A stretch of 64,000 nt of DNA from Streptomyces sp. NBC_01216 (GTDB taxonomy: Bacteria; Actinomycetota; Actinomycetes; Streptomycetales; Streptomycetaceae): NCBI RefSeq assembly GCF_035994945.1, contig NZ_CP108677.1, forward strand, positions 3,162,001 through 3,226,000. The letters are read 5' to 3'. A model generated the notes under the pieces. The model was given only the letters and a program-made list of their open reading frames with translations. It was not told where the DNA came from and ran no database searches. The position numbers and the translations under genes were made by a program. This document shows, in pieces, positions 10,871 to 25,078 of this stretch (positions are counted from its first letter, which is position 1; each line of letters starts with the position of its first letter).

Positions 10871-11953
10871 TTGAACCGACGCCGCTGGTCCACCGCCACG
10901 CTCACCGTGGTCTGCGCCCTGACGGTGCTGGCCTCGCCCGCGCTGACCCTCCAGGCGAGTGCGGCCCCGACGCCGCCCGCCCCGCGCCCGGGAACCACCG
11001 CGAAGGCGCCCCGGCTTCCCGAGCGGACACTCGAGGAGGTCCGCGCCGAGATCGACGCCCTCTACCGCCAGGCCGCCGTCGCCACCGACGCCTACAACCT
11101 CGCCGAGGAGCAGTCCGAGGAGCAGTCCGAGGAGATCGTGCGGCTGGCCCGGATGATCGTGGCCGGCCGCGAGAAGATCGACCTGCTCAAAGCACAGGCG
11201 GGGGCGGCGGCCCGCGCCCAGTACCGCAACGGGGGCCTCCCGGACGGTGCCCAGTTCGTCCTCACCGACGACCCCCAGCTCTTCCTCGACCACGCGGGGC
11301 GGCTCCAGCAGGGCGCGAAGGCCACCAAGGACCTTCTCGCGGACATGGATCGCACCCAGGCGGAGCTGACCTCCTACGCCAAGGACGCGGGCACGAACTG
11401 GACCCTGCTCGAGGCCAACCGCGTCAAGCAGGCCAAGGCGAAGAAGGACGTCGAGGCCAAGATAGAGGCGGCCAAGAAGCTCGAGTCCGAACTGGCGGCC
11501 GAGGAGCGGGCGCGGCTGCGGCGGCTGGAGGAGCAGGCGCAGAACCGGGCCCAGAGCGCCTGGCTGGACTCCGGAGTCCTCAAGGGCCTGGACGGCAAGG
11601 CGACCGAACAGGGCGAGCGGGCGGTCCGGTTCGCCACCGCGCAGATCGGCAAGCCGTACGTGTGGGGCGCCGAGGGCCCGGGTTCGTACGACTGCTCCGG
11701 CCTGACCCAGAGCGCCTGGGGGGCGGCGGGCAGGTCCATCCCGCGTACCTCGCAGGAGCAGTGGCGGCTGCTGCCGCACGTGGCCGTCAAGGACATGCGG
11801 CCCGGCGACCTCATCGTCTATTTCAAGGACGCCAGCCACATCGGGATGTACGTGGGCGACGGCACGATCGTGCACGCCCCGCGACCCGGCAGGAACGTGA
11901 CGCTGGCGGGCGCGGGTTCGATGGCGATCCTGGGCGTCGTCCGCCCCGGGTGA
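10871..11953 (+). CDS. Secreted NlpC/P60 peptidoglycan hydrolase
   Basis: Exported cell-wall endopeptidase (C40 family) of about 360 residues. A TTG start at 10871 is chosen because it lies next to AGGGGGAG and begins a proper signal peptide: NRRRW, then a hydrophobic core TLTVVCALTVLASPALTL, then a cleavage region near QASAAP. Residues about 60-240 are coiled-coil (EEQSEEQSEEIVRLARMI, KDVEAKIEAAKKLESELAAEERARLRRLEEQ). The catalytic domain has C275 (SYDCSGL), H323 (ASHIGMYVG) and H335 (IVHAP). This is the RipA-like layout of Streptomyces hydrolases acting in growth or sporulation. The start codon is the least certain part. Confidence 0.85.
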   Translation: MNRRRWSTATLTVVCALTVLASPALTLQASAAPTPPAPRPGTTAKAPRLPERTLEEVRAEIDALYRQAAVATDAYNLAEEQSEEQSEEIVRLARMIVAGREKIDLLKAQAGAAARAQYRNGGLPDGAQFVLTDDPQLFLDHAGRLQQGAKATKDLLADMDRTQAELTSYAKDAGTNWTLLEANRVKQAKAKKDVEAKIEAAKKLESELAAEERARLRRLEEQAQNRAQSAWLDSGVLKGLDGKATEQGERAVRFATAQIGKPYVWGAEGPGSYDCSGLTQSAWGAAGRSIPRTSQEQWRLLPHVAVKDMRPGDLIVYFKDASHIGMYVGDGTIVHAPRPGRNVTLAGAGSMAILGVVRPG

Positions 11954-14716: not shown

Positions 14717-15202
14717 CTACGGCTGGGGCGAGGTCGACGGACGCCCGGCCCCGGGCGCGTCGGGAAGCCCGGCGGCGTCAGGGGCGTCGGACGCCTCGGG
14801 CCCGGACTCCTGCCGCGCTCCGGCGGCGGAGTCCGTGACCGGGCCCGCGGCGGCGTCGGCGGCGTTCTCCTTGCGGAAGGAGTCGTAGATCTGGAGCAGA
14901 ACCTGCTTCTGCCGCTCGTTGATCGAGGGATCGGCCAGTATGACGGCGCGCGTCTCCAGCTCCTCCCGCTCCTTCTCGTCGAGGATCCCGGCCCGCACGT
15001 ACAGCGTCTCGGCGGAGATCCGCAGGGCCTTGGCGACCTGCTGCAGCACTTCGGCGCTGGGCTTGCGCAGACCTCGCTCGATCTGGCTCAGGTACGGATT
15101 CGACACCCCCGCGGCGTCCGCGAGCTGCCGCAGGGACAGCTGCGCGGTGCGCCGCTGCTCGCGGAGGTACTCGCCGAGACTGCCGACGTTCAGTGATGCC
15201 AT
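14717..15202 (-). CDS. XRE family transcriptional regulator
   Basis: A 161-residue DNA-binding protein. The N-terminal HTH_3 domain covers about residues 8-65 (LGEYLREQRRTAQLSLRQLAD; recognition helix around NPYLSQIERGLRKPS). A helical middle (REELETRAVILADPSINERQKQVLLQIYDSF) is shared with Streptomyces regulators of this type, and the last 50 residues are a disordered Ala/Ser/Asp/Pro tail. A perfect palindrome lies 28 bp upstream of its ATG, so it probably represses itself and possibly the two genes downstream. Its promoter side marks the border with the transposon-bearing island. Confidence 0.88.
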   Translation of the reverse strand: MASLNVGSLGEYLREQRRTAQLSLRQLADAAGVSNPYLSQIERGLRKPSAEVLQQVAKALRISAETLYVRAGILDEKEREELETRAVILADPSINERQKQVLLQIYDSFRKENAADAAAGPVTDSAAGARQESGPEASDAPDAAGLPDAPGAGRPSTSPQP

Positions 15203-15230
15203 GCCTCCGAAGATGCCACCCTCCGCTAAC

Positions 15231-15254
15231 TATTGCAAGCACCTGCTTGCAATA
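15231..15254. promoter_or_regulatory. Palindromic operator of the XRE regulator
   Basis: TATTGCAAGC-ACCT-GCTTGCAATA is a perfect 10-bp inverted repeat with a 4-base spacer, centred about 40 bp upstream of the XRE gene start. It is AT-rich compared with its surroundings, as expected for a promoter-overlapping operator. Confidence 0.7.
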
Positions 15255-15279
15255 GTGCGCCGGGTCACGTGTGACCGAG

Positions 15280-15435
15280 TGTGACTCGCAGCGATAACTG
15301 TCACTTCGCAGGGATTTCTGTCACCAGTCGGCCGTAGTCGCCGAGCGGTGAGTTGGCCCGTGTGTCCTGTCGCATTGAAGCTGTCGGATTCTCACCGCTT
15401 CTCGTTCGCGCTGTCGGATTCTCAGTGTGTCGCGC
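15280..15435 (+). repeat. Transposon end with iterated TGTC sites
   Basis: Several related words beginning TGTC/TGTG lie between the XRE promoter and tnsA: TGTGACTCGCAG (15280), TGTCACTTCGCAG (15299), TGTCACC (15319), TGTCGCA (15368), TGTCGGATTCTCA (15382 and an exact copy at 15412) and TGTCGCGC (15428). The first two units align over about 19-20 bp. Iterated transposase-binding sites starting TGT are the hallmark of Tn7 and Tn5053/Tn402-type ends. The exact outer boundary and target duplication could not be fixed. Confidence 0.6.
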
Positions 15436-15540
15436 GCTGAGCGGCGACGTTTGCCCCATACGTGGGGTTTGATCTCATTTTCCTGGTCTGGTTCTCGCGG
15501 TACCTGTCACGGTCGTTTCGGCAGGTACGCGGAGCCGGGG

Positions 15541-16275
15541 GTGGCGATGGATCTGGGTCTGGTCGATGTCGAGTGGGCTGATGGTGAGGGTGGCGGGCTG
15601 CGGAGGTCCGTGCTGGAGGCGGTGTCCCGGGTTCGGTTCGAGTCGGTGCTTCCGGTGCGGCGGTTCACGTCGTACCGCGGGCAGCGGCACTTCACGGGCT
15701 GGTACTGGGCGGCGACGACGCAGTCGCTGGTGGGGTTCGAGTCGTGGCTGGAGCGGGACCGGGCCATGCTCCTTGACCATGACCGGAGGGTGGTGGGGCT
15801 GGCCTCGCAGCCGTTCCGGGTGACATGGCAGGGGGAGAAGCACCGGATCTCGCATACGCCGGACTACTTTGCACGGCTGGAGGACGGCTCGGGCCTGGTC
15901 GTCGATGTCCGGCCGGCGGACCGGGTCGGCCCGGAGGACGCGGTGAAGTTCTCGGCGACCGAAGCGATATGCCAGGAGATGGGCTGCTGGTCCTTCGCCC
16001 TGGTGCACGAGCCCGATCCGGTGGAGATGACCAACGTTCGCTGGCTGTCTGGCTACCGGCATCCACGCAACCGGGTCGGCGACGTCGCGAAACGCCTCAT
16101 GGACGCCTTTGATGACCCGCGGTTGCTCATGGACGGCGCCGAGGCAGTGGGGGACCCGTTGTCCGTCCTGCCGACGCTCTACCACCTGCTGTGGTGCGGT
16201 GACCTGCGTCTTGACCTGTCGGTGCCGTTGGGAGACGGCGCCGTGATCGGCCGCGCGGCGGCGAGTCATGGCTGA
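15541..16275 (+). CDS. tnsA: TnsA-like transposase endonuclease subunit
   Basis: A 244-residue restriction-endonuclease-fold protein that, in Tn7, cuts the 5' ends of the transposon while TnsB joins the 3' ends. Candidate active-site residues are E67 (FESWLERD), D108 (HTPDYFARL) and D122-V-R124 (VVDVRPADR). Escherichia coli TnsA uses E, D and Q-x-K, so the Lys position is Arg here. The GTG at 15541 is chosen because GGAG lies 6 bases before it; an ATG two codons later is possible. The gene end overlaps tnsB by 8 bp. Presence of TnsA implies cut-and-paste rather than replicative transposition, if R124 is functional. Confidence 0.85.
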   Translation: MAMDLGLVDVEWADGEGGGLRRSVLEAVSRVRFESVLPVRRFTSYRGQRHFTGWYWAATTQSLVGFESWLERDRAMLLDHDRRVVGLASQPFRVTWQGEKHRISHTPDYFARLEDGSGLVVDVRPADRVGPEDAVKFSATEAICQEMGCWSFALVHEPDPVEMTNVRWLSGYRHPRNRVGDVAKRLMDAFDDPRLLMDGAEAVGDPLSVLPTLYHLLWCGDLRLDLSVPLGDGAVIGRAAASHG

Positions 16276-18346
16276 ACTGGCGCCACGCGGGGTTCTGCGG
16301 GTCGGGGACCGGATTCGGTTCGAGGGCCACAACCAGCAGATCATCGGCCTGGATGGAATGACCCTGCGGCTGCTCAGCGACGAGGGCGACACCAGTGTCA
16401 TGGCTGCCGGCTACGTGATGGCGGCCGCCGATTTCGAGGTGCTGGACCGTGGGCCGGAGGCGGTTCCGGAACGAGTCCTGCCGCCGTTCGCGTTGGTGGA
16501 CGCGTTGCCGACGGCGGCCGTCGAGCAGGCCCGGTTCTGGGAACAGCACGTGGTGGAAGTACTGACCGGGCTGCCTCCGGATGCTCCGGAAGGCACGTCT
16601 CCTCGGCCTGAGTACGACCCGGCCTGGCGGACGCTGATGGAGCGAGAAGCTGCGAAGGTGGCCGAGCTGGCGGCCGGCGGGCAGCAGATGAGCAAGCGGA
16701 CCTTTCTGCGGATGCGGCAGCGCTACGAGGCCGAGGGGTTGTGGGGGCTGGTGGACGGCCGGTCCCGGAAACCGCCGGCCCCGGTCCCCGGCACGGGAAG
16801 GACGGACGAGCGCGTCGTCGAGGCGGTCACCGAGGCCCTGGCCGGGCAGACGGACCTTTCGACGGGGGATCGCAAGCGGCTCATGCTGCGGGCCGAGCAG
16901 ATCCTCGCCGCGAAGCACGGCGAGGAAGCGGTGAAGCTCCTGCCGACGAGGGCGACCTTCTACCGGCTGGTGAACAGCCTCGCCAGGAACAACGAGTCCT
17001 TCGGTTCGGCCACGGTCCGCCGCCAGCGAGCGCGTCGGCCCGTGGGGCCGTTCACTCCCTCCATGGCCGCCCGCCCCGGGGAGATCGTGCAGATCGACTC
17101 CACGCGGCTGGACGTGATGGCGGTGCTGGACGACGGAGTCGTGGCCCGCCCGGAACTGACGATCGCGGTCGATGTCACGACACGCACGATCTGCGCGGCC
17201 CTGCTCAGGCCCGCGGGCACGAAAGGCGTCGACGCCGCGGTGCTGCTGGCGAGAATGCTGGTTCCCGAGCCGATGCGGCCGGGCTGGAGCCAGACCCTGG
17301 CGATGTCGGACTCGGTCCTGCCGCACCAGCGGCTCATGGCGGTGGACACGCGGTTGGAGAAGGCCGCGGCCAAGCCGGTCATCGTCCCGGACACCATCGT
17401 CATCGACCACGGCAAGGTGTTCGTCTCCGACACGTTCTCCTCCGCCTGCTCGCTGCTGGGGATCTCCTTGCAGCTCGCGAGGCCCAGGACCCCGACGGAC
17501 AAGGCGATCGTGGAGAGGACGTTCGCGTCGATCAACTCACTGTTCTGCCAGTACGTCGCGGGCTACACCGGCTCCGATGTCACCCGTCGCGGCAGCGATC
17601 CGGCCTCCGAGGCGGTCTGGACCCTCGCCCAGCTCCAGGATCTCCTGGACGAGTGGATCATCTGCTGGCAGCAGCGTCCGCACGAGGGTCTGCGCAACCC
17701 CTATATGGCGGGGCGGACGCTGTCGCCGAACGAGTCGTACGCCATCGCCGTCGCCCGCACCGGATACTTGCCGGTCGCTCTGTCGGCGGCGGACTACATC
17801 GAGCTGCTACCCGCGGTCTGGAGGGCCGTCAACGACTACGGCATCAAGGTCAACTACCGCACCTACGACAGCCCCGAGCTCAACCGGCTACGAAGGCAGC
17901 CGTCCGGGGTGACGGGCAAGCAGGATCTGTGGGAGGTCCACTACGACCCCTACGACGTCTCCCGCGTCTGGGTACGGCGAAGCGACAGCCGCCGATGGAT
18001 CGAAGCCCTGTGGACACACCTGCCCATGGTCCGGGCCCCTTTCGCCGACTTCACCTGGCGCCACGCACGCCAACTTCTCGCCGACCAAGGCCGCGACGAC
18101 ACCAGCGAGACCGCCATCGCCCAGGTCCTGGCCAAGCTTCTGCGCAGGTCGGGAAAGCCGCCGGCCGGATCGGAACAGGTCATGGCCCGCACCCGGGCAT
18201 CCCTTGAGGCCCCCGCACGGCCCACACTCCCGCCTGCCCGGTCCGCCGATGCGGACGACAGCGAGACCGAAGGGCCGGAGGATGCGCCGGTCACCCCGTT
18301 CGGCGTCTTCAACCCCCTGGAAGAGGAAGGAAACCCGCTGTGGTGA
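16268..18346 (+). CDS. tnsB: TnsB-like DDE transposase
   Basis: A 692-residue retroviral-integrase-fold transposase. Residues about 130-200 contain winged-helix DNA-binding segments (MSKRTFLRMRQRYEAEGLWGLVDGR), and 80 residues later comes a second one. The catalytic core has D277 (IVQIDSTRL), D380 (TIVIDHGKV) and E416 (KAIVERTF), the last two 36 residues apart as expected. A Mu-type C-terminal beta-barrel follows (ALWTHLPMVRAPF), then a disordered acidic tail that in Tn7 contacts TnsC. It overlaps both tnsA (8 bp) and tnsC (7 bp). It should bind the iterated TGTC sites upstream of tnsA. Confidence 0.92.
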   Translation: MAELAPRGVLRVGDRIRFEGHNQQIIGLDGMTLRLLSDEGDTSVMAAGYVMAAADFEVLDRGPEAVPERVLPPFALVDALPTAAVEQARFWEQHVVEVLTGLPPDAPEGTSPRPEYDPAWRTLMEREAAKVAELAAGGQQMSKRTFLRMRQRYEAEGLWGLVDGRSRKPPAPVPGTGRTDERVVEAVTEALAGQTDLSTGDRKRLMLRAEQILAAKHGEEAVKLLPTRATFYRLVNSLARNNESFGSATVRRQRARRPVGPFTPSMAARPGEIVQIDSTRLDVMAVLDDGVVARPELTIAVDVTTRTICAALLRPAGTKGVDAAVLLARMLVPEPMRPGWSQTLAMSDSVLPHQRLMAVDTRLEKAAAKPVIVPDTIVIDHGKVFVSDTFSSACSLLGISLQLARPRTPTDKAIVERTFASINSLFCQYVAGYTGSDVTRRGSDPASEAVWTLAQLQDLLDEWIICWQQRPHEGLRNPYMAGRTLSPNESYAIAVARTGYLPVALSAADYIELLPAVWRAVNDYGIKVNYRTYDSPELNRLRRQPSGVTGKQDLWEVHYDPYDVSRVWVRRSDSRRWIEALWTHLPMVRAPFADFTWRHARQLLADQGRDDTSETAIAQVLAKLLRRSGKPPAGSEQVMARTRASLEAPARPTLPPARSADADDSETEGPEDAPVTPFGVFNPLEEEGNPLW

Positions 18347-19410
18347 CTCCGCCTGACACCCATGACGACGAGCACAACCCGCTGACCACCAAGGACGGCT
18401 GGAGACAGTTCGTCGACGACGCCCCGGTCTGCCCGGCCATGCTCTCGCCACGGGCCTTCAAGGCCCTCACCGAGGAGAAGCGTCTCGCTTACAACGAGCC
18501 CCGGCTGGACTACCACTCCCGGCTCGTGATCGTGGCCACCCCCACCGTCCGCAACGTGTTCACCACCGGACGGCGCCTGGTCCTGCTCAACCGGCACCAG
18601 ATCTCCGGCCGCCGCGGGCTGATCGTCACCGGCCAGGCCGGGACCGGCAAGACGACCGCCATCGCCCAGCTCGGCCGCAACCATGAACTTCTGGTCCGCA
18701 AACGGCTCGGCTCGGCCGCCGCAGGGCGACTGCCGGTCGTCTACGTCACCGTCCCGCCCCGGGCCACCCCGAAGATGCTCGCCATCGAGTTCGCCCGGTT
18801 CCTCGGCCTTCCCGTCGTCCGGCAGGAGACCCAGACCTCCATCACCAACGCCGTCTGCGACCTGCTGATCAAAATGCGTGTCGAACTCGCGCTCGTCGAC
18901 GAGATCCACAACCTCAACCTCGCCACCCAGACCGGGGCCGAAGCCTCCGACCAGCTCAAATACCTGTCCGAGCGGATCCCCGCCACCTTCGTGCTCGCCG
19001 GCATCGACGTCGCCGCGAGCGGCCTGTTCAGCGGGGTCCGGGGTCAGCAGATCGCTGGCCGATACACCGTCACCGAGACCGAACCGTTCGCCTACGGCAC
19101 CACCGGGCAGCGGCAGAACTGGCGGAACCTGGTCGCCTCGCTCGAAGACGCCCTGCGACTCCACCGGCACAAGCCCGGCAGCCTGGTCAAACTCGACGGC
19201 TACCTCCACGAACGCACTGACGGCGCGATCGGCAGCCTCTCCCAGCTCGTCCGCGGCGCCGCCCTTGAGGCCATCATCAACGGCAGCGAGGCCATCACCC
19301 GCAAGACTCTGGAGACCATCGAGGTCGACCAGACTGCCGAGGACGCCCGCCAGGAACACCGCCGCAACCGTCGCCCCCGCCGCCGGAGGCCGGATGTCGA
19401 CGCAGCCTGA
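18340..19410 (+). CDS. tnsC: TnsC/TniB-like AAA+ ATPase
   Basis: ATPase of 356 residues that in Tn7-like systems polymerises on DNA and links target selection to the transposase. The Walker A motif GQAGTGKTT is at about residues 98-106 and Walker B LALVDEIHN near 184-192; the AAA+ sensor region follows at ATFVLAGIDVAASGLF. The N-terminal 60 residues (CPAMLSPRAFKALTEEKRLAYNE) and a basic C-terminal tail (RRNRRPRRRRPD) flank the core. The start uses one of two tandem GTG codons (18340 or 18343) overlapping the tnsB stop. The end overlaps tniQ by 17 bp. Confidence 0.9.
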   Translation: MVTPPDTHDDEHNPLTTKDGWRQFVDDAPVCPAMLSPRAFKALTEEKRLAYNEPRLDYHSRLVIVATPTVRNVFTTGRRLVLLNRHQISGRRGLIVTGQAGTGKTTAIAQLGRNHELLVRKRLGSAAAGRLPVVYVTVPPRATPKMLAIEFARFLGLPVVRQETQTSITNAVCDLLIKMRVELALVDEIHNLNLATQTGAEASDQLKYLSERIPATFVLAGIDVAASGLFSGVRGQQIAGRYTVTETEPFAYGTTGQRQNWRNLVASLEDALRLHRHKPGSLVKLDGYLHERTDGAIGSLSQLVRGAALEAIINGSEAITRKTLETIEVDQTAEDARQEHRRNRRPRRRRPDVDAA

Positions 19411-20269
19411 CCAACTTCGTCAGCTGCCCATCGCTCTCGGGCCCATCCACAACGAGACCGTCGGTTCCTATCTCCACCGCCTGGCCGTCGCCAACAACCG
19501 TCCCGCGGGCTTCCTCGCCCGCCTCCTTGGACCGCTGCCGCTGGAGTTCTCCCCGCTCAGCAACACCACGGCCGGCTGGACTCCCCACTCGCCTGAACGC
19601 CTGGCCACACTCTCCGGGCGCCCAACGTCCCAGCTCGCCCGGGCCCTGCCCGCGCTCGCCGACTTCCTCAGCCCGCATGCTCCCGGGCGGCGAACGGAAC
19701 AGCTGATCAGCCGCCCCTGCCGCTGCTGCACAGCCCGCCGCAGCCTCACCGCTTCCGTGGTCATCACCCTCTCGCCTGCCCACGTCCACCTCTGCCTGCG
19801 GCATCAGCTCTGGACCCGCTCCACTCACGACATCCCGCTCGTCTCCTTGCCGGAAGTCATCGAGGCCCAGCGTCGACTCGACCAGCTCGCCCGCCGTCAC
19901 CGCCAGGTCCGACAAGCCCTCGACCTGGCACGGAGAATCGTCGAGGACTGGTCCGCCTCCGGAATGCCGATCGATCTTGGAAAGGAGTGGACCGACCGCC
20001 TCGACCGAGTCGAAGCTCTCGCGGTCAGCAAGAAGATCTCGGCTGAGGACCGCAGCCACCTCGCGGCGTTCCCCGAAGTCGTGGTGCTGACGCACCTGAT
20101 CCTCGACCCGCCCACCACTGCCCTCGATCCCAAGGAGCTCTATCTTGCGACGACCGCCGAGCTGAGCCGACGATTCGCGCGGATCTACACCACCCTCGGA
20201 ACCCAGGACCCCCTCTACCGGCGCTTCTGTCTCTATCGCGAACGAGACTTCCGTGAGGCTCCGGGCTAA
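19394..20269 (+). CDS. tniQ: TniQ family target-selection protein
   Basis: A 291-residue protein of the TniQ/TnsD family, which recruits TnsC to the target. The start MSTQPDQLRQLPIALGPIHNETVGSY contains the characteristic P-x(n)-NE(T/S)-x-S-(Y/W) block, followed by the zinc ribbon C-R-C-C ... HLCLRH (about residues 113-140). After that comes a helical region with little similarity to known TnsD. At this size it is closer to the short TniQ of Tn5053 and CRISPR-associated transposons than to the 500-residue sequence-specific TnsD. No TnsE, no second TniQ and no Cas gene are visible, so how the site is chosen is open. Confidence 0.87.
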   Translation: MSTQPDQLRQLPIALGPIHNETVGSYLHRLAVANNRPAGFLARLLGPLPLEFSPLSNTTAGWTPHSPERLATLSGRPTSQLARALPALADFLSPHAPGRRTEQLISRPCRCCTARRSLTASVVITLSPAHVHLCLRHQLWTRSTHDIPLVSLPEVIEAQRRLDQLARRHRQVRQALDLARRIVEDWSASGMPIDLGKEWTDRLDRVEALAVSKKISAEDRSHLAAFPEVVVLTHLILDPPTTALDPKELYLATTAELSRRFARIYTTLGTQDPLYRRFCLYRERDFREAPG

Positions 20270-20278
20270 GTTCGACTC

Positions 20279-20539
20279 GTGGACGGCACGGAGATCACCA
20301 TCAAGCTCACCCCCGACGAGGCACTCGTCCTCTCGGACTGGCTGGAGCGAGTTCAGATGACGGACCTCAGTCGTCTGGTTGACGACCCAGCCGCCTGGGC
20401 CCCGATCCACAAGCTCGCGGGGATGCTGGACAAGGCGCTTCCCGGGATCTTCGCCGCTGACTACGCGGAGCGTCTGGATGCAGCACGGCGCCGCCTGCGG
20501 GAGACCATGGGCAGCTTCACGGAAGAGCAAGGCAGCTGA
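20279..20539 (+). CDS. Small acidic helical protein after tniQ
   Basis: An 86-residue protein with a GTG start 9 bp after the tniQ stop, so it is in the same operon. It has a short strand (TEITIKLTPDEALVLSDWLERV) and helices (AAWAPIHKLAGMLDKALPGIFAADYAERLDAARRRL). The type is common in Streptomyces as an uncharacterised small protein. No domain known to me fits. It could be a transposition accessory factor or cargo. Confidence 0.65.
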   Translation: MDGTEITIKLTPDEALVLSDWLERVQMTDLSRLVDDPAAWAPIHKLAGMLDKALPGIFAADYAERLDAARRRLRETMGSFTEEQGS

Positions 20540-20623
20540 CCTGCACACGCTTCCGTGGAAGCAAGCCCGTTGAGAACACCAAAGTCCCGGCGCTCTTCAG
20601 CAACAATGCCTACTCGTCGCGCC

Positions 20624-21214
20624 TCATGCGTCGGCGCTGAGCGGGAACATGATGCTCAACCTCGGCAGCCTGCGAGCCGCTTCTTCTTCATCCCAGACGT
20701 TCCAGCGCTTCCCGGCCGGGCCCTGGCCGACCGCGTGCTCGCCCCGCCGGGTCCGCACCGCCGCATAGAAGGCATCCCCGCACTCGTCGGGATCCCCAGT
20801 CACAAGCCCGAATGCTTCCAACGCCACATAGTCGAGCGATTCCCAACCGGGCCAGTCATCGCCCCAGGACCTCCAAGTTCGCCCCGCCAGGCGCAGGACA
20901 TCAGGAGTGTCAGCCAGAGCATCAGGGTCGAGCACGGCTCGCCCGAAGGCTTCTTTGCCCAGCCCGACCATCCAGAGGCCGAAGTAGCAGAAGTCGTCAT
21001 CCGAACACCGGCCACCGAAGATCCGCTCCGCCGCAGCCACTAGTTCCCAGGAGAAAGCCTGACGGGTCACTTGGTCCAGGCACATCTGGAACTCAACGAT
21101 CTCTTCCAGCGGCCTGCGCGACAAATCCTCACGAAGCCATGTAAGTCGTGCATCTCTGCTTTGCGTCTGGCGGCGACAGGTCTCCACGAGTTCCCAGAAC
21201 TTCTCAAGGTTCAC
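20624..21214 (-). CDS. DUF4240 domain-containing protein
   Basis: A 196-residue protein that begins VNLEKFWELVETCRR, matching the usual DUF4240 opening (FW-x-L-I/V-E), then RPLEEIVEFQMCLDQVTRQAFSWELVAAA, DDFCYFGLWMVGLGKEAFGRAVLDPDALAD and WESLDYVALEAFGL. DUF4240 proteins are found in polymorphic-toxin immunity and defence neighbourhoods, but function is unproven. The GTG at 21214 is chosen from family start position; an ATG at 21256 in frame is the alternative. It converges on the tns operon, with an 84-bp gap to it, and is probably cargo. Confidence 0.75.
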   Translation of the reverse strand: MNLEKFWELVETCRRQTQSRDARLTWLREDLSRRPLEEIVEFQMCLDQVTRQAFSWELVAAAERIFGGRCSDDDFCYFGLWMVGLGKEAFGRAVLDPDALADTPDVLRLAGRTWRSWGDDWPGWESLDYVALEAFGLVTGDPDECGDAFYAAVRTRRGEHAVGQGPAGKRWNVWDEEEAARRLPRLSIMFPLSADA

Positions 21215-21370
21215 GAAGAGCACCCTGCCAGGCACCACTGACAACGGACGGGCCACCTGGCGCCCTCGTCACTTCCGCGAGAGCCAGATCGTTTGAGATA
21301 GTCACCGGCCCGCAGTCCCAGAACATCTGGCACCTATGCAAGTCAGCGTCACGTCAACTGCCACCTGCGC

Positions 21371-21383
21371 TGCGACAGGACAC
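21371..21383 (-). repeat. 13-bp inverted match to the transposon end
   Basis: On the minus strand this reads GTGTCCTGTCGCA, identical to 15362-15374 in the tnsA-side repeat region, in inverted orientation. It could mark the far end of the transposon, immediately before the IS3 remnant. Only one such match was found and the flanking bases do not align well, so chance is possible. Confidence 0.25.
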
Positions 21384-21405
21384 CGTGAATGGTTGACGGG
21401 GCCCG

Positions 21406-22008: not shown

Positions 22009-22929
22009 ATGAGCTCAGATGCGAACGACAGGGTCCGCCCTGGAGACTTGCCGACGATGGCCTTCACGATTCTCTCGGAGGCGTTCTTCGACGATCGGGG
22101 ACGTTCGGTTCCCTTCCATCTGCGGGACAAGCGGAACACCCAGGATGACCCGTTCGATGAGTACGTCACCGATCTTCTCCACGAACAGTTGCCGGCGGAG
22201 GTGATTGTTCTGCGGGCAGACAAACCCTTGGTAAGCCCCGACGCTGTCATTGCGAGGCCCGAGGAGTACGAGCTCCTGAGGGCAGGTGGGGTCGACTACG
22301 ACCCCCGGGCGATCTTCGGCCTCGAGGTCAAGAAGGTCGACCTGGGCAAGAACGGGAAGCCCGCCCGTTCCACGGGTCTCGACTACAACAGCACCCCGCC
22401 TTGCGCAACCGTCCGCGTTTACGCCGAGGACGGCAACGAGATCCGCATCCCTGGCTTCTACCTGTTTGTCGCTCTTAAGGGAAACGAAGAGGGTGGCATG
22501 GTGCAAGTGCATTCGATGGTCCTGGTGGCCGGTGCTGCTCTAAATAAAGATGTGGATCTCTATGACCGCATCACGGGAACGCGCACCAAGCAGATTGGAC
22601 TTGGTACATACGGTGACGGAGCGAACCGGGTAAGGCCGATGCTGCTCTTCTCTAACCCACTCGGTTGGGAATGGATGCTCGGTGCGGCAACTTTCATCAG
22701 TGAGCGCAATGACCTTGCAGACGACCCGTCCCTCGCTCACGTACGCGACATGACCCGTACCGTCTCACCAGGGGTGTCCGAGCTCTTCCATTGTTACCGG
22801 CTTGCCAAACTGTCTCCCCCGGTCGAGGAGATCGCGCACGACCCCTTCCCGCAGCCATCGAAGCGAAAGGAGGAGACGGCTCAGCGGGGCCGGTTCGAGA
22901 TCAATCTGCGAACACTCACCCTCGGTTAG
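22009..22929 (+). CDS. Probable restriction endonuclease (PD-(D/E)xK)
   Basis: A 306-residue protein without a name I can recall. A PD-(D/E)xK nuclease core is visible: D78 in LVSPDAVIA, then E106-V-K108 in IFGLEVKKVDLG after 27 residues. The region between contains PEEYELL, and after it come GIPGF-like and FYLFVALKGN strands. Its position beside a DNA methyltransferase, in convergent orientation with a 14-bp overlap at the stops, makes a restriction role the best inference. The ATG at 22009 has no clear ribosome-binding site; ATG 22057 (MAFTILSEAFF) after GGAG is an alternative. Several stretches are AT-richer than the backbone (for example 22540-22570), suggesting transfer. Confidence 0.65.
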   Translation: MSSDANDRVRPGDLPTMAFTILSEAFFDDRGRSVPFHLRDKRNTQDDPFDEYVTDLLHEQLPAEVIVLRADKPLVSPDAVIARPEEYELLRAGGVDYDPRAIFGLEVKKVDLGKNGKPARSTGLDYNSTPPCATVRVYAEDGNEIRIPGFYLFVALKGNEEGGMVQVHSMVLVAGAALNKDVDLYDRITGTRTKQIGLGTYGDGANRVRPMLLFSNPLGWEWMLGAATFISERNDLADDPSLAHVRDMTRTVSPGVSELFHCYRLAKLSPPVEEIAHDPFPQPSKRKEETAQRGRFEINLRTLTLG

Positions 22930-25078
22930 AACGCACGTCGAGAGCGGCGGCGGCTGCGGCGACCGCCTCTCCGGCTTCCGCCGCCAACTCCTCGACGGAC
23001 AGCGAGTTTCCGGGAACGGTATGCAGTGCGAGGACAGAGCCCCTGACCACGGATTCGACGTCCGCATACCCGACCTTGACGCCAGCCTCCTTGCACTCAC
23101 GCAGCGCGATAATGGCACGCTCCCTCACTGCCTCCACCGAGCACCCCTCGGGCCCCACGTGTCCGATCAGCCGGCACACGACGATCGAATCCAGGTTCGA
23201 CGGATCGGCCGCACTTGACTTAATGGTGCTCGTGCTCATTTCTGCCTTCACAGGCTGCACTGCGGTAATTACCAGTCCCGCGTTCTCCAATGCCTTGACC
23301 AGCTCAACCCATCCCGCAATTCGAGCCTGATGAAAGGTGAACGCAAGCAGACCATTCGACCTAAGGAGTCGGGCACACTCCTTCCATACTGCGGCAATGG
23401 CATGGCCAAACTCGGCGGGATCTGCGGACTGGACTTCCTCTGCATGGCGCGTGGTGTTGGAGTCTGCCGGGTAGCTCTCGAATGGCTGGAGCTGCCGAAG
23501 CCATGCGTGGAAGAAGTCGGCGAGTTCACTGTAGTGGACGTTGTCCATGAAAGGGGGGTCGGTGATGACCAGATCTACTGATGCATCCGGGAGGTCGAAG
23601 GATGCCGATGATCCATAGTGAACGTACGCACTCGCTCTCCCTTGATCGAAGGACTCAGCGTCACCGATCTCTAGCGAAAGAGGATGCGACAGCCCGAAGA
23701 CGCGCTCCGAGTTATCGCCCACGGGCACGAGATCATGCGGAGCACGCTTGTACTCCCACGCGCGGATGATACGAGACTGATAGAGCGTCGAGAAGGCGCC
23801 AGAGGATGCGGAAGTACCCCAGGGATGCGCTTCGAGCGGAGTCCGTTCGGGCTTTAGGACATGGTTGGAGAACATGTGCCGGACGGCACCAGTCCCTTCA
23901 CCCTTGAACGAGCAGAAGAGATTGTTGAATTCAAGCACGCCAGAGAAAAGTGCGGCCAGCGCCTCGCGCTCCGGTCCGGATTCAAGGTCGCGGATAGCCT
24001 TGCCAAGCAACCCAAGGCTATAGAGCTGACGAGCGTTGAAGAACTGACGCCACTCGCGATAGTTCCAGCGGATGGCCTGTCGGGTGTTATGGCCGTCATC
24101 CAATGTGCCGGCTGGCAGTACGAGCTCCTCGCCTCGCTCCTCAAGCAGCTTCTCAGCCTTCGCGTAAAGCGCGAGGTCGAAGTCGTCGATGGGTTCGTAC
24201 AGCCGTGATCCGTCTGCATCAAGCACTTGTTTCGCATACATGCGGAGCTGCGGAGGCTGCCCCCCCAAAGCGTCGATGACTTTGGCCGCGTGACCCTGAG
24301 AACAAGTCATGGTCGCGCGGTTTACCGGGCCAACGAGGTCTGAGACCTGGTTGCAGGCAGGACATGTCAGCTGCTTATCCTTCACCACATCGACGATTGC
24401 AATGGCGTGACAGTGCGGACACGTCGCCTTGCTGGCCGGATATTTCTTCGGATAGGCATGCCGAGCAAAGACGTACCGACTGAATAGCTCCACGGGCGGC
24501 ACGTCGGGAGGACATTGGGGACACTGGGCGAGGGCGACCCAGAAGTAGTAGAGGACGGGCCGACCACGCTCATCCCTGTGCAACTGATCGATTTCAGAGC
24601 GGACCTGAGACTCTACTTGCTTAAATGCCCGGTCCAGTCGAGTCCGATCCCAAGGAGCCAGCGCCTGCCGCTGAACCAGTGTCGCCACCGGGTTGATGTC
24701 CCTGCCGATCACTCGCGCACCGAGCTTTGCTGCCTCCGCGAGCGTCGTGCCGGAGCCGGCAAAGGGGTCGCAGACAATAAGACCTTCGAGCCGAAGCGCA
24801 TTGCTGTAGCACTCGATGGCATCTTGTTCGTCCTGCGCAACAGCTGCGGCCAGGATCCCACGGAAAACAGAGCCAAGGCGTTGCGCCCACCACTTGTGAG
24901 TGTGCGTGGCCGGTCGGTGCACCTCCTTGCGCCAGGACTCCCGCTCGGCCGCGGCCGACACGATCCCGGCAGGGAAAGCCGTCTCCAGCGCTGTCACCGC
25001 AGGGATCGAACTCCGAACGATCGACGTCGGGCCGTCTTCTGTAGCGCTGAAGATGCTGTCCTGCTCAAAGATCGTCAT
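22916..25078 (-). CDS. Zn-ribbon DNA methyltransferase (DUF1156/COG1743-like)
   Basis: A 720-residue amino-methyltransferase. The N-terminus has HTHKWWAQRLGSVFRGILAAA, resembling the HxxWWARR entry of DUF1156 methylases, then SAM motif I DPFAGSGTT at residues 104-112. Three Cys pairs (C186/C189, C220/C223, C239/C242) form Zn-ribbons. The catalytic motif IV TDPPF is at 506-510, typical of N6-adenine or N4-cytosine methylation. The ATG at 25078 begins MTIFEQDS. It converges on the nuclease gene with a 14-bp overlap. It most likely protects host DNA from that nuclease; the recognition site is unknown. Confidence 0.85.
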   Translation of the reverse strand: MTIFEQDSIFSATEDGPTSIVRSSIPAVTALETAFPAGIVSAAAERESWRKEVHRPATHTHKWWAQRLGSVFRGILAAAVAQDEQDAIECYSNALRLEGLIVCDPFAGSGTTLAEAAKLGARVIGRDINPVATLVQRQALAPWDRTRLDRAFKQVESQVRSEIDQLHRDERGRPVLYYFWVALAQCPQCPPDVPPVELFSRYVFARHAYPKKYPASKATCPHCHAIAIVDVVKDKQLTCPACNQVSDLVGPVNRATMTCSQGHAAKVIDALGGQPPQLRMYAKQVLDADGSRLYEPIDDFDLALYAKAEKLLEERGEELVLPAGTLDDGHNTRQAIRWNYREWRQFFNARQLYSLGLLGKAIRDLESGPEREALAALFSGVLEFNNLFCSFKGEGTGAVRHMFSNHVLKPERTPLEAHPWGTSASSGAFSTLYQSRIIRAWEYKRAPHDLVPVGDNSERVFGLSHPLSLEIGDAESFDQGRASAYVHYGSSASFDLPDASVDLVITDPPFMDNVHYSELADFFHAWLRQLQPFESYPADSNTTRHAEEVQSADPAEFGHAIAAVWKECARLLRSNGLLAFTFHQARIAGWVELVKALENAGLVITAVQPVKAEMSTSTIKSSAADPSNLDSIVVCRLIGHVGPEGCSVEAVRERAIIALRECKEAGVKVGYADVESVVRGSVLALHTVPGNSLSVEELAAEAGEAVAAAAAALDVRSNRG

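Follow-up and report, generated by a model that had tools for sequence, protein, structure and literature searches.

We analyzed a stretch of 64,000 nucleotides from Streptomyces sp. NBC_01216 (contig NZ_CP108677.1; the whole stretch is hereafter called the window) and identified in it a 6,020 base pair (bp) transposon which, with a probability that we put at roughly 80%, is an autonomous actinobacterial TnsA-TnsB-TnsC-TniQ transposon whose single TniQ, acting with TnsC, targets it to the ends of other transposons. The full transposon occupies window positions 15363–21382 (edges read from the match with a second copy on contig C3); both edges lie further right than the 15280–20539 given in an earlier note made from the letters alone. 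That note had recognized a Tn7-like transposon with four overlapping open tnsA, tnsB, tnsC, and tniQ genes, and here it was right, as the four frames are intact and their products match the corresponding families. Judged by its sequence, the element is a real and recently mobile relative of Tn7, which appears to move as a unit with 5-bp target duplications.

Copies, ends and distribution of the transposon

The second copy is in the same genome (G000), on contig C3 (145,945 bp); positions 11300–16595 of C3 are 100% identical to window 15363–20658 (5,296 bp). The C3 copy is then interrupted by a 1.7-kb insertion, past which a further 732 bp, to window 21385, match with 99.9% identity. The C3 copy is flanked by its own 5-bp duplication, ACCGC, while the window copy lies between two copies of CCGTG; because copies with 100% identity are bounded by different duplications, the transposon appears to have moved recently. 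Both the TGT..ACA ends and the 5-bp target duplication of a Tn7-like element are present. Another genome (G310) contains two copies at two sites with no difference across their 4,997 bp; a third copy in G310 was found beyond the places listed with at least 90% TnsB identity. The 1.7-kb insertion (L003 16595–18295) contains an IS5-like transposase (insertion sequence, IS), assigned by eye, and the copy in G231 (L032) is probably an older insertion, as its tnsA and tnsC frames are broken.

Among the 392 Streptomyces genomes sampled, 163 contained TnsB relatives (E up to 1e-60; at most two candidates were scored per genome, and copy numbers from this survey are lower bounds), and TnsB identity of at least 90% was found at six places in four genomes among the matches listed. 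The transposon is not a fixed locus across these genomes; together with the intact frames, this removes two doubts voiced in the earlier note, namely that the genes might form a non-mobile locus in all Streptomyces and that the operon might carry disabling mutations. The left end of the transposon had no match in IMG/VR. TnsB relatives of 45–54% identity were also observed on the main contig toward its two ends, in most cases no more than tens of kb from them (G057, G065, G107, G150, G153, G227, and G283); in G116, they lie on two contigs, about 1.4 kb from the start of each.

Insertion at the ends of other transposons

A pattern of the subfamily's left end that allowed up to three mismatches (flanks with more mismatches are uncounted) matched at 51 places in 40 of the 392 genomes, as compared to none for the reversed pattern. 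The resulting set comprised 58 flanks distinct by sequence, 50 of them genomic and eight from plasmids (from 11 of 19 plasmid records). In the 50 genomic flanks, the sequence before the insertion showed peaks for TGT at 83/84 bp and for TGKC at 64/65 and 44/45 bp. A ladder score, counting TGT at 81–85 bp and TGKC at 62–66 and at 42–46 bp before the insertion, reached 3 in 16 of the 50 flanks as compared to 13 of 81,993 random positions within the same loci, and was at least 2 in 24 flanks as compared to 581 of these control positions (0.7%). Six further flanks contained a Tn3-family repeat with a 28-bp core ending 22–25 bp from the insertion (0 of 4,907 random control positions), giving a total of 30 of the 50 distinct flanks with either the ladder or the Tn3 repeat; where intact, the outer edge of this repeat (..GGGCC) lies 8–11 bp from the insertion, as read off the sequences. 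Ten insertions of two other lineages at the XRE site described below, used as a specificity control, scored 0 (nine) or 1 (one).

Aligned at the insertion point, the flanks were assigned by eye to four classes. Classes A (8 flanks) and B (10 flanks) represent termini of TGTAGG/TGTGGG-ended elements; class C (14 flanks) represents mostly TGTGAC-ended elements, including the outer element of the window copy; and class D (7 flanks) is a Tn3-family inverted repeat, beside which Tn3 transposase, DUF4158, and resolvase genes are found in one plasmid. The remaining 19 of the 58 flanks are unclassed; five of these still lie at transposon ends by eye, one in a TGTCCGTTC-type end (L161), three in left ends of the subfamily's own type (L156, L153_1614, and L192_6001), and one beside an own-type right end (L182). 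One of the 51 places (G174 C46:24071), kept outside the counts and inspected separately, lies in a class A terminus with a ladder score of 3. A TGKC anchor, picked within 41–47 bp and thereby favoring a tight result, is located 42–45 bp from the insertion in 34 of the 36 class A–D flanks aligned (36 of the 39 classed flanks; L168, L176, and L194 were omitted), with none within 41–47 bp in the other two. The C3 copy, 29 bp past the stop codon of a resolvase gene, was at first read as a case of res-site hunting; this reading was rejected, as the motif is the Tn3-family terminal repeat.

The target also lies on one side. Seventeen of the 40 left ends listed are complete copies with matching ends and exact 5-bp duplications (two in class A, five in B, six in C, and four in D), with lengths of 234–9,878 bp; one of them (L201) came from a class C query. 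In these 17 copies plus L153, the tnsA-side flank scored 2–3 in 12 and contained the Tn3 repeat in four; the other two, L194 and L153, scored 0 and 1, respectively. The opposite flank of the same 18 copies scored 0 in 13 and 1 in five, never more, and contained no Tn3 repeat at 22–25 bp in any of the 18 (one weak match, with seven mismatches at 30 bp, in L194). The earlier note had expected either a constant site next to the XRE gene or scattered sites; copies are indeed scattered over the genomes, yet most are at a fixed distance and side relative to transposon ends, a pattern that this dichotomy misses.

Eight of the 17 complete copies (L214, L194, L203, L209, L188, L201, L190, and L213; 234–1,996 bp) are too short for tns genes and are probably non-autonomous forms moved in trans; another copy, of 682 bp, lies inside a left end of its own type. 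The number of separate events behind the pattern would be overestimated if the 83-bp outer terminus and the left end travelled as one unit, and some flanks within a class do share sequence, with L146 and L183 sharing one 5-mer. However, exact duplications separate the outer terminus from the left end in the 17 complete copies, 37 different 5-mers precede the 39 classed insertions, and uninterrupted class A, B, and C termini are present in plasmids. In addition, a relative with 58–59% TnsB identity (L037), located 92 bp inside a class B end, has its empty (joined) target site in G295 (L104), where the duplicated 5-mer is present once. Joint travel is therefore a very improbable explanation.

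The outer elements, to judge from their own duplications, are mobile too: AGACT is found around 237 bp in L034 and GATCT around 641 bp in L199, both exact, and the duplications of the L038 and L035 outer elements match in four of five bases. In L198 (8987–10581), TGTAGG-ended elements were observed in tandem with 4–5 bp between neighbors, as if repeatedly inserted at one fixed point; the 641-bp TGTAGG-ended element (L199 7601–9641) is located directly after a plasmid dnaB, and three more of the plasmids listed have class B matches that overlap a gene for a DnaB-like helicase. TGTAGG-ended elements may use the 3′ end of dnaB as an attachment site. For class C, an IS21 origin was weighed from the repeats; two plasmids have helix-turn-helix (HTH) and XRE neighbor genes instead, and a third (L191) contains an annotated transposase and ATP-binding pair, an IS21-like layout, left of a weak left-end match. 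Class C may yet be of IS21 origin.

A single element enters several of these classes: in G000, one copy lies in class C (chromosome) and the other in class D (C3), and the two identical G310 copies lie in class B and class A. Because identical copies occupy different classes, the choice of target is not set by differences between elements, suggesting that one selector reads all classes.

Several points weigh against transposon ends as a general target read by TniQ, in addition to the range from which the TGKC anchor was picked. Fourteen of the 58 flanks fit no class by eye (one of them, L142, is probably a chance match), 20 of the 50 genomic flanks fail the strict rule, and the flanks from which classes A–C were named are also those that the rule describes. 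The class B member L194, with a score of 0, has its terminus at 91 bp; three copies are inserted in left ends of the subfamily's own type, two of them 113 bp in (one, L153, with a duplication) and one 82 bp in (L192); and Tn3 targets are without the full ladder, so that a single recognition rule for all classes is unproven. No mover gene of the class A, B, or C outer elements was found. As for the protein, TniQ passes the cut-off of PF06527 narrowly (27.7 bits vs. 27), and its AlphaFold model is too poor (mean predicted local distance difference test score, pLDDT, of 57.5) for a fold search or to reveal a DNA-reading domain. The 14 flanks without a class would also be compatible with random insertion followed by persistence of only those copies that landed in non-coding DNA of other mobile elements. 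Such survival, however, would produce neither the clustering, with a scatter of about 2 bp, at 83/84, 64/65, and 44/45 bp, nor insertion on one side only, nor 30 of 50 flanks as compared to 0.7% of control positions, and we find it scarcely credible.

The XRE region and the features of the window

The left flank of the window copy opens 23 bp past a conserved palindrome upstream of an XRE-family gene with TGTGACTCGCAGCGATAAC-TGTCACTTCGCAGGGATTTC-TGTCACC, and the transposon starts 83 bp on. A similar end is present in G005, likewise 23 bp past the XRE palindrome, and in G208 with a different flank; because the same end recurs both at the XRE site and elsewhere, 15280–15362 is the terminus of another mobile element in which the window element is nested. 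The right end of this outer element was sought, with no clear match. A solo left end in G272 is located 163 bp from an XRE start and, here too, 83 bp within a class C terminus. The TGTC repeat region reported before tnsA in the earlier note is thus present but represents two things, i.e., the terminus of the other element (15280–15362) and, from 15363 on, the transposon's own left end.

The XRE neighborhood was compared in 80 of the 163 TnsB-positive genomes, those with the best TnsB matches. In 13 of these 80 genomes, G000 included, a TnsB relative is located within 4 kb of the XRE gene, and its orientation is the same in all 13. Insertions of two other lineages (ends TGTCCGTTC and TGACCTGTCTC) begin 41–45 bp (five cases) and 35–54 bp (five cases) past the XRE palindrome, with exact 5-bp duplications in five of these ten insertions. 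Going by these positions, at least two other Tn7-like lineages of the family use the XRE promoter as a fixed attachment site; loci with this site include L039, L040, L042, L088, and L100, and another element with an exact duplication (L049) is 235 bp away at the XRE site. The gene adjoining the conserved XRE gene is presumably HbhA-like. The shared orientation of the relatives near XRE and the narrow range of the two lineages would suit a window copy inserted site-specifically beside the XRE gene in the same manner. This is nevertheless quite improbable, as the window element begins about 106 bp past the palindrome, 83 bp inside an element that itself starts 23 bp past it, and the C3 copy and the listed relatives with at least 90% TnsB identity are located elsewhere.

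Coordinates of the features are collected in Table 1. Beside the transposon, window 22009–25078 encodes a 306-amino acid (aa) protein that matches nothing in Pfam or NCBIfam and a methyltransferase of 720 aa that is partially similar to the anti-phage-island-linked DUF1156 family (NF042963, 128.9 bits vs. a cut-off of 1000).

Table 1. Features of the transposon and its left flank in the window (ORF, open reading frame).
Feature	Positions	Strand	Remarks
Host XRE-family gene beside the insertion	14717..15202	-	one match in each of 80 genomes searched
Conserved palindrome upstream of XRE gene (ACTATTGCAAGCA..TGCTTGCAATAGT)	15229..15256		fixed reference point of the XRE attachment region
Class C left terminus of other mobile element, 83 bp	15280..15362	+	TGTGACTCG at 15280, TGTCACTTC at 15299, TGTCACC at 15319; target entered by the transposon
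5-bp target duplication CCGTG, left copy	15358..15362
Whole transposon	15363..21382	+	termini TGTCCTGTCGCA and TGCGACAGGACA; edges of match with C3 copy
Left (tnsA-side) end	15363..15423	+	transposase-type repeats: TGTCCTGTCGCA at 15363, TGTCGGATTCTC at 15382 and 15412
tnsA-like endonuclease gene	15427..16275	+	282 aa as called; start codon uncertain
tnsB-like DDE transposase gene	16268..18346	+	692 aa
tnsC-like AAA+ ATPase gene	18340..19410	+	356 aa
tniQ gene	19394..20269	+	291 aa; sole target-selector candidate
86-aa ORF	20279..20539	+	no Pfam family; cargo, since the 4,994-bp relative L033 has no room for it
DUF4240 gene	20624..21256	-	cargo
Right terminus	21371..21382	+	left 12 bp as perfect inverted repeat
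5-bp target duplication CCGTG, right copy	21383..21387

Machinery, target selection and known systems

All proteins that define a Tn7-like element (TnsA, TnsB, TnsC, and TniQ/TnsD) are predicted in the transposon. TnsA matches the NCBIfam family TnsA_like_Actin (NF033179, 289.5 bits vs. a cut-off of 110) and falls below the cut-off of Pfam PF08722 (21 vs. 26.5); distant relatives align only from about residue 32–76, leaving its start uncertain. Its PD..VD.RP motif is invariant in 11 sequences and places Arg in VD.RP at a position where Tn7 TnsA has Lys, so that TnsA is a putative endonuclease. TnsB contains Mu-transpos_C above the Pfam cut-off, with acidic residues invariant in 11 sequences, and its best solved relative is Tn6677 TnsB; TnsC contains TniB and AAA_22, both above Pfam cut-offs, and has VchTnsC (Tn6677) as its best solved match (1.6e-13). 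In TniQ, a C-x2-C ... C-x2-H finger (C109, C112, C134, and H137) is invariant in 24 of 24 aligned sequences; 44 relatives, many named TniQ, were found among 8,000 candidates scored, and a search by sequence found no related solved structure.

The six genes of the element include no TnsD-sized protein and no resolvase, and no Cas-like or TnsE-like family was found in the six ORFs with Pfam and NCBIfam (no TnsE-specific model was run); the element also gave no Rfam match at E up to 1 and contains no array-like repeats or repeats resembling clustered regularly interspaced short palindromic repeats (CRISPR). As the earlier note had stated, there is one short TniQ and no sign, in these searches, of TnsE, Cas, or guide RNA. 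The element is accordingly neither Tn7 proper, with its TnsD-sized selector, TnsE, and glmS site, nor a CRISPR-associated transposon with a Cas effector and guide RNA. The note considered the route to the target unexplained by the known Tn7 classes; most copies lie at the ends of other transposons. Nor does it fit the Tn5053 family (no TnsA, own resolvase, res targets), given that TnsA is present, a resolvase is absent, and the targets are ends. No serine recombinase was found in the retrieved stretches of 18 related genomes; two more distant elements (L012 and L021) have a resolvase-like gene about 5 kb from tnsB.

We propose that TniQ, together with TnsC, would place the tnsA-side end nearest the target, with TnsC setting the spacing by analogy with Tn7. 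In classes A, B, and C, the insertion would then fall at a constant position within the left terminus of TGT-ended mobile elements, about 83 bp in, and in class D 8–11 bp outside the Tn3-family inverted repeat; common to these targets is a TGKC motif 42–45 bp ahead of the insertion, which in most cases represents rung three of a 20-bp transposase-type ladder. Because the side, the distance, and the TGKC motif are constant, TniQ may bind two rungs of the outer ladder (the second and the third) or, in the Tn3 repeat, its single TGTCAC, and would thus read DNA rather than a bound protein. Alternatively, TniQ or TnsC might sense a foreign transposase or resolvase bound at its own end, in the manner proposed for Tn5053, which would sense resolvase at res sites. 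Past the TGT/TGKC rungs, the target classes have little sequence in common, yet position and side are constant, and copies identical over 5,296 bp entered both class C and class D, as sensing of an occupied end would allow; precedents are res-site hunting (PMC11406308) and an IS beside XerC sites (PMC10132070). On the other hand, the TGKC at 42–45 bp in nearly all aligned classed flanks is explained by reading of naked DNA, and some targets are relics (L168 and L183) whose ladder is partly gone, so that we regard sensing of a bound protein as unlikely. A broader proposal, which we put forward tentatively, is that the element represents a hyperparasitic Tn7-like class in which TniQ recognizes a general end architecture (the 20-bp ladder, as DNA or covered by a foreign transposase), such that many unrelated transposons serve as landing pads and the element rides between chromosomes and plasmids.

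The copies described here supply dozens of natural insertion sites and a testable targeting rule. If upheld, TniQ-directed insertion would show how a minimal TniQ alone aims at mobile DNA in the absence of TnsD, TnsE, or CRISPR, and would provide a new module for targeting. It also hints at the way in which nested transposons accumulate into layered islands in Streptomyces.

Tn7 produces 5-bp duplications, has TGT..ACA ends, and inserts at a fixed distance and side with its tnsA-side end nearest the target. The window element shares these features with TnsD-directed Tn7 at glmS but has no TnsD-sized protein and targets the ends of other mobile elements rather than a host gene. Target sites of Tn7-like elements are marked by a protein with a TniQ domain, and a ring of TnsC determines how far from the site and on which side insertion takes place; with a single TniQ, Tn5053 elements hunt for res sites (PMC11406308). 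Tn5053/Tn402 resemble the window element in having one TniQ and targets tied to Tn3-family transposons (PMC11406308); unlike them, the window element has TnsA and no resolvase, and enters beside Tn3 inverted repeats and in TGT-ended ends, not at res. IS5075 and IS4321, which enter the terminal repeats of Tn21-like transposons, likewise use Tn3-family terminal inverted repeats as a safe harbor (PMC8269217), but with an IS1111-family enzyme, insertion within the repeat, and no Tns proteins. ISAjo2 relatives (IS1202 family), which sit 5 bp from XerC sites, share a TnsB-like transposase, TGT..ACA ends, 5-bp duplications, and a fixed distance and orientation to a recombinase site, but have no further Tn7-type proteins and target dif/pdif (PMC10132070). 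Tn7706 of Rhodococcus is also an actinobacterial tnsA-tnsB-tniB-tniQ transposon; it differs in its size of 19.4 kb, and the section available gives no target rule (PMC12915292). Benler et al. (2021) described an Actinobacteria-dominated Tn7-like clade without a characterized member (clade 2; PMC8649781), in which its host group and gene set would place the window element. It shares with this clade the host group, the TnsB, TnsC, and TnsD/TniQ gene set, and a ladder of transposase sites at the ends; the available passages of that paper give boundaries and cargo but no target rule for the clade. Targeting of sites in one mobile element by another is already known, and searches of the open-licence PMC literature listed no report of a Tn7-like TnsABC-TniQ element aimed at the ends of several kinds of transposon. 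As the machinery is familiar and the selector's mode of reading unproven, we consider the element a new targeting variant within the known Tn7-like family and not a new mechanism class.

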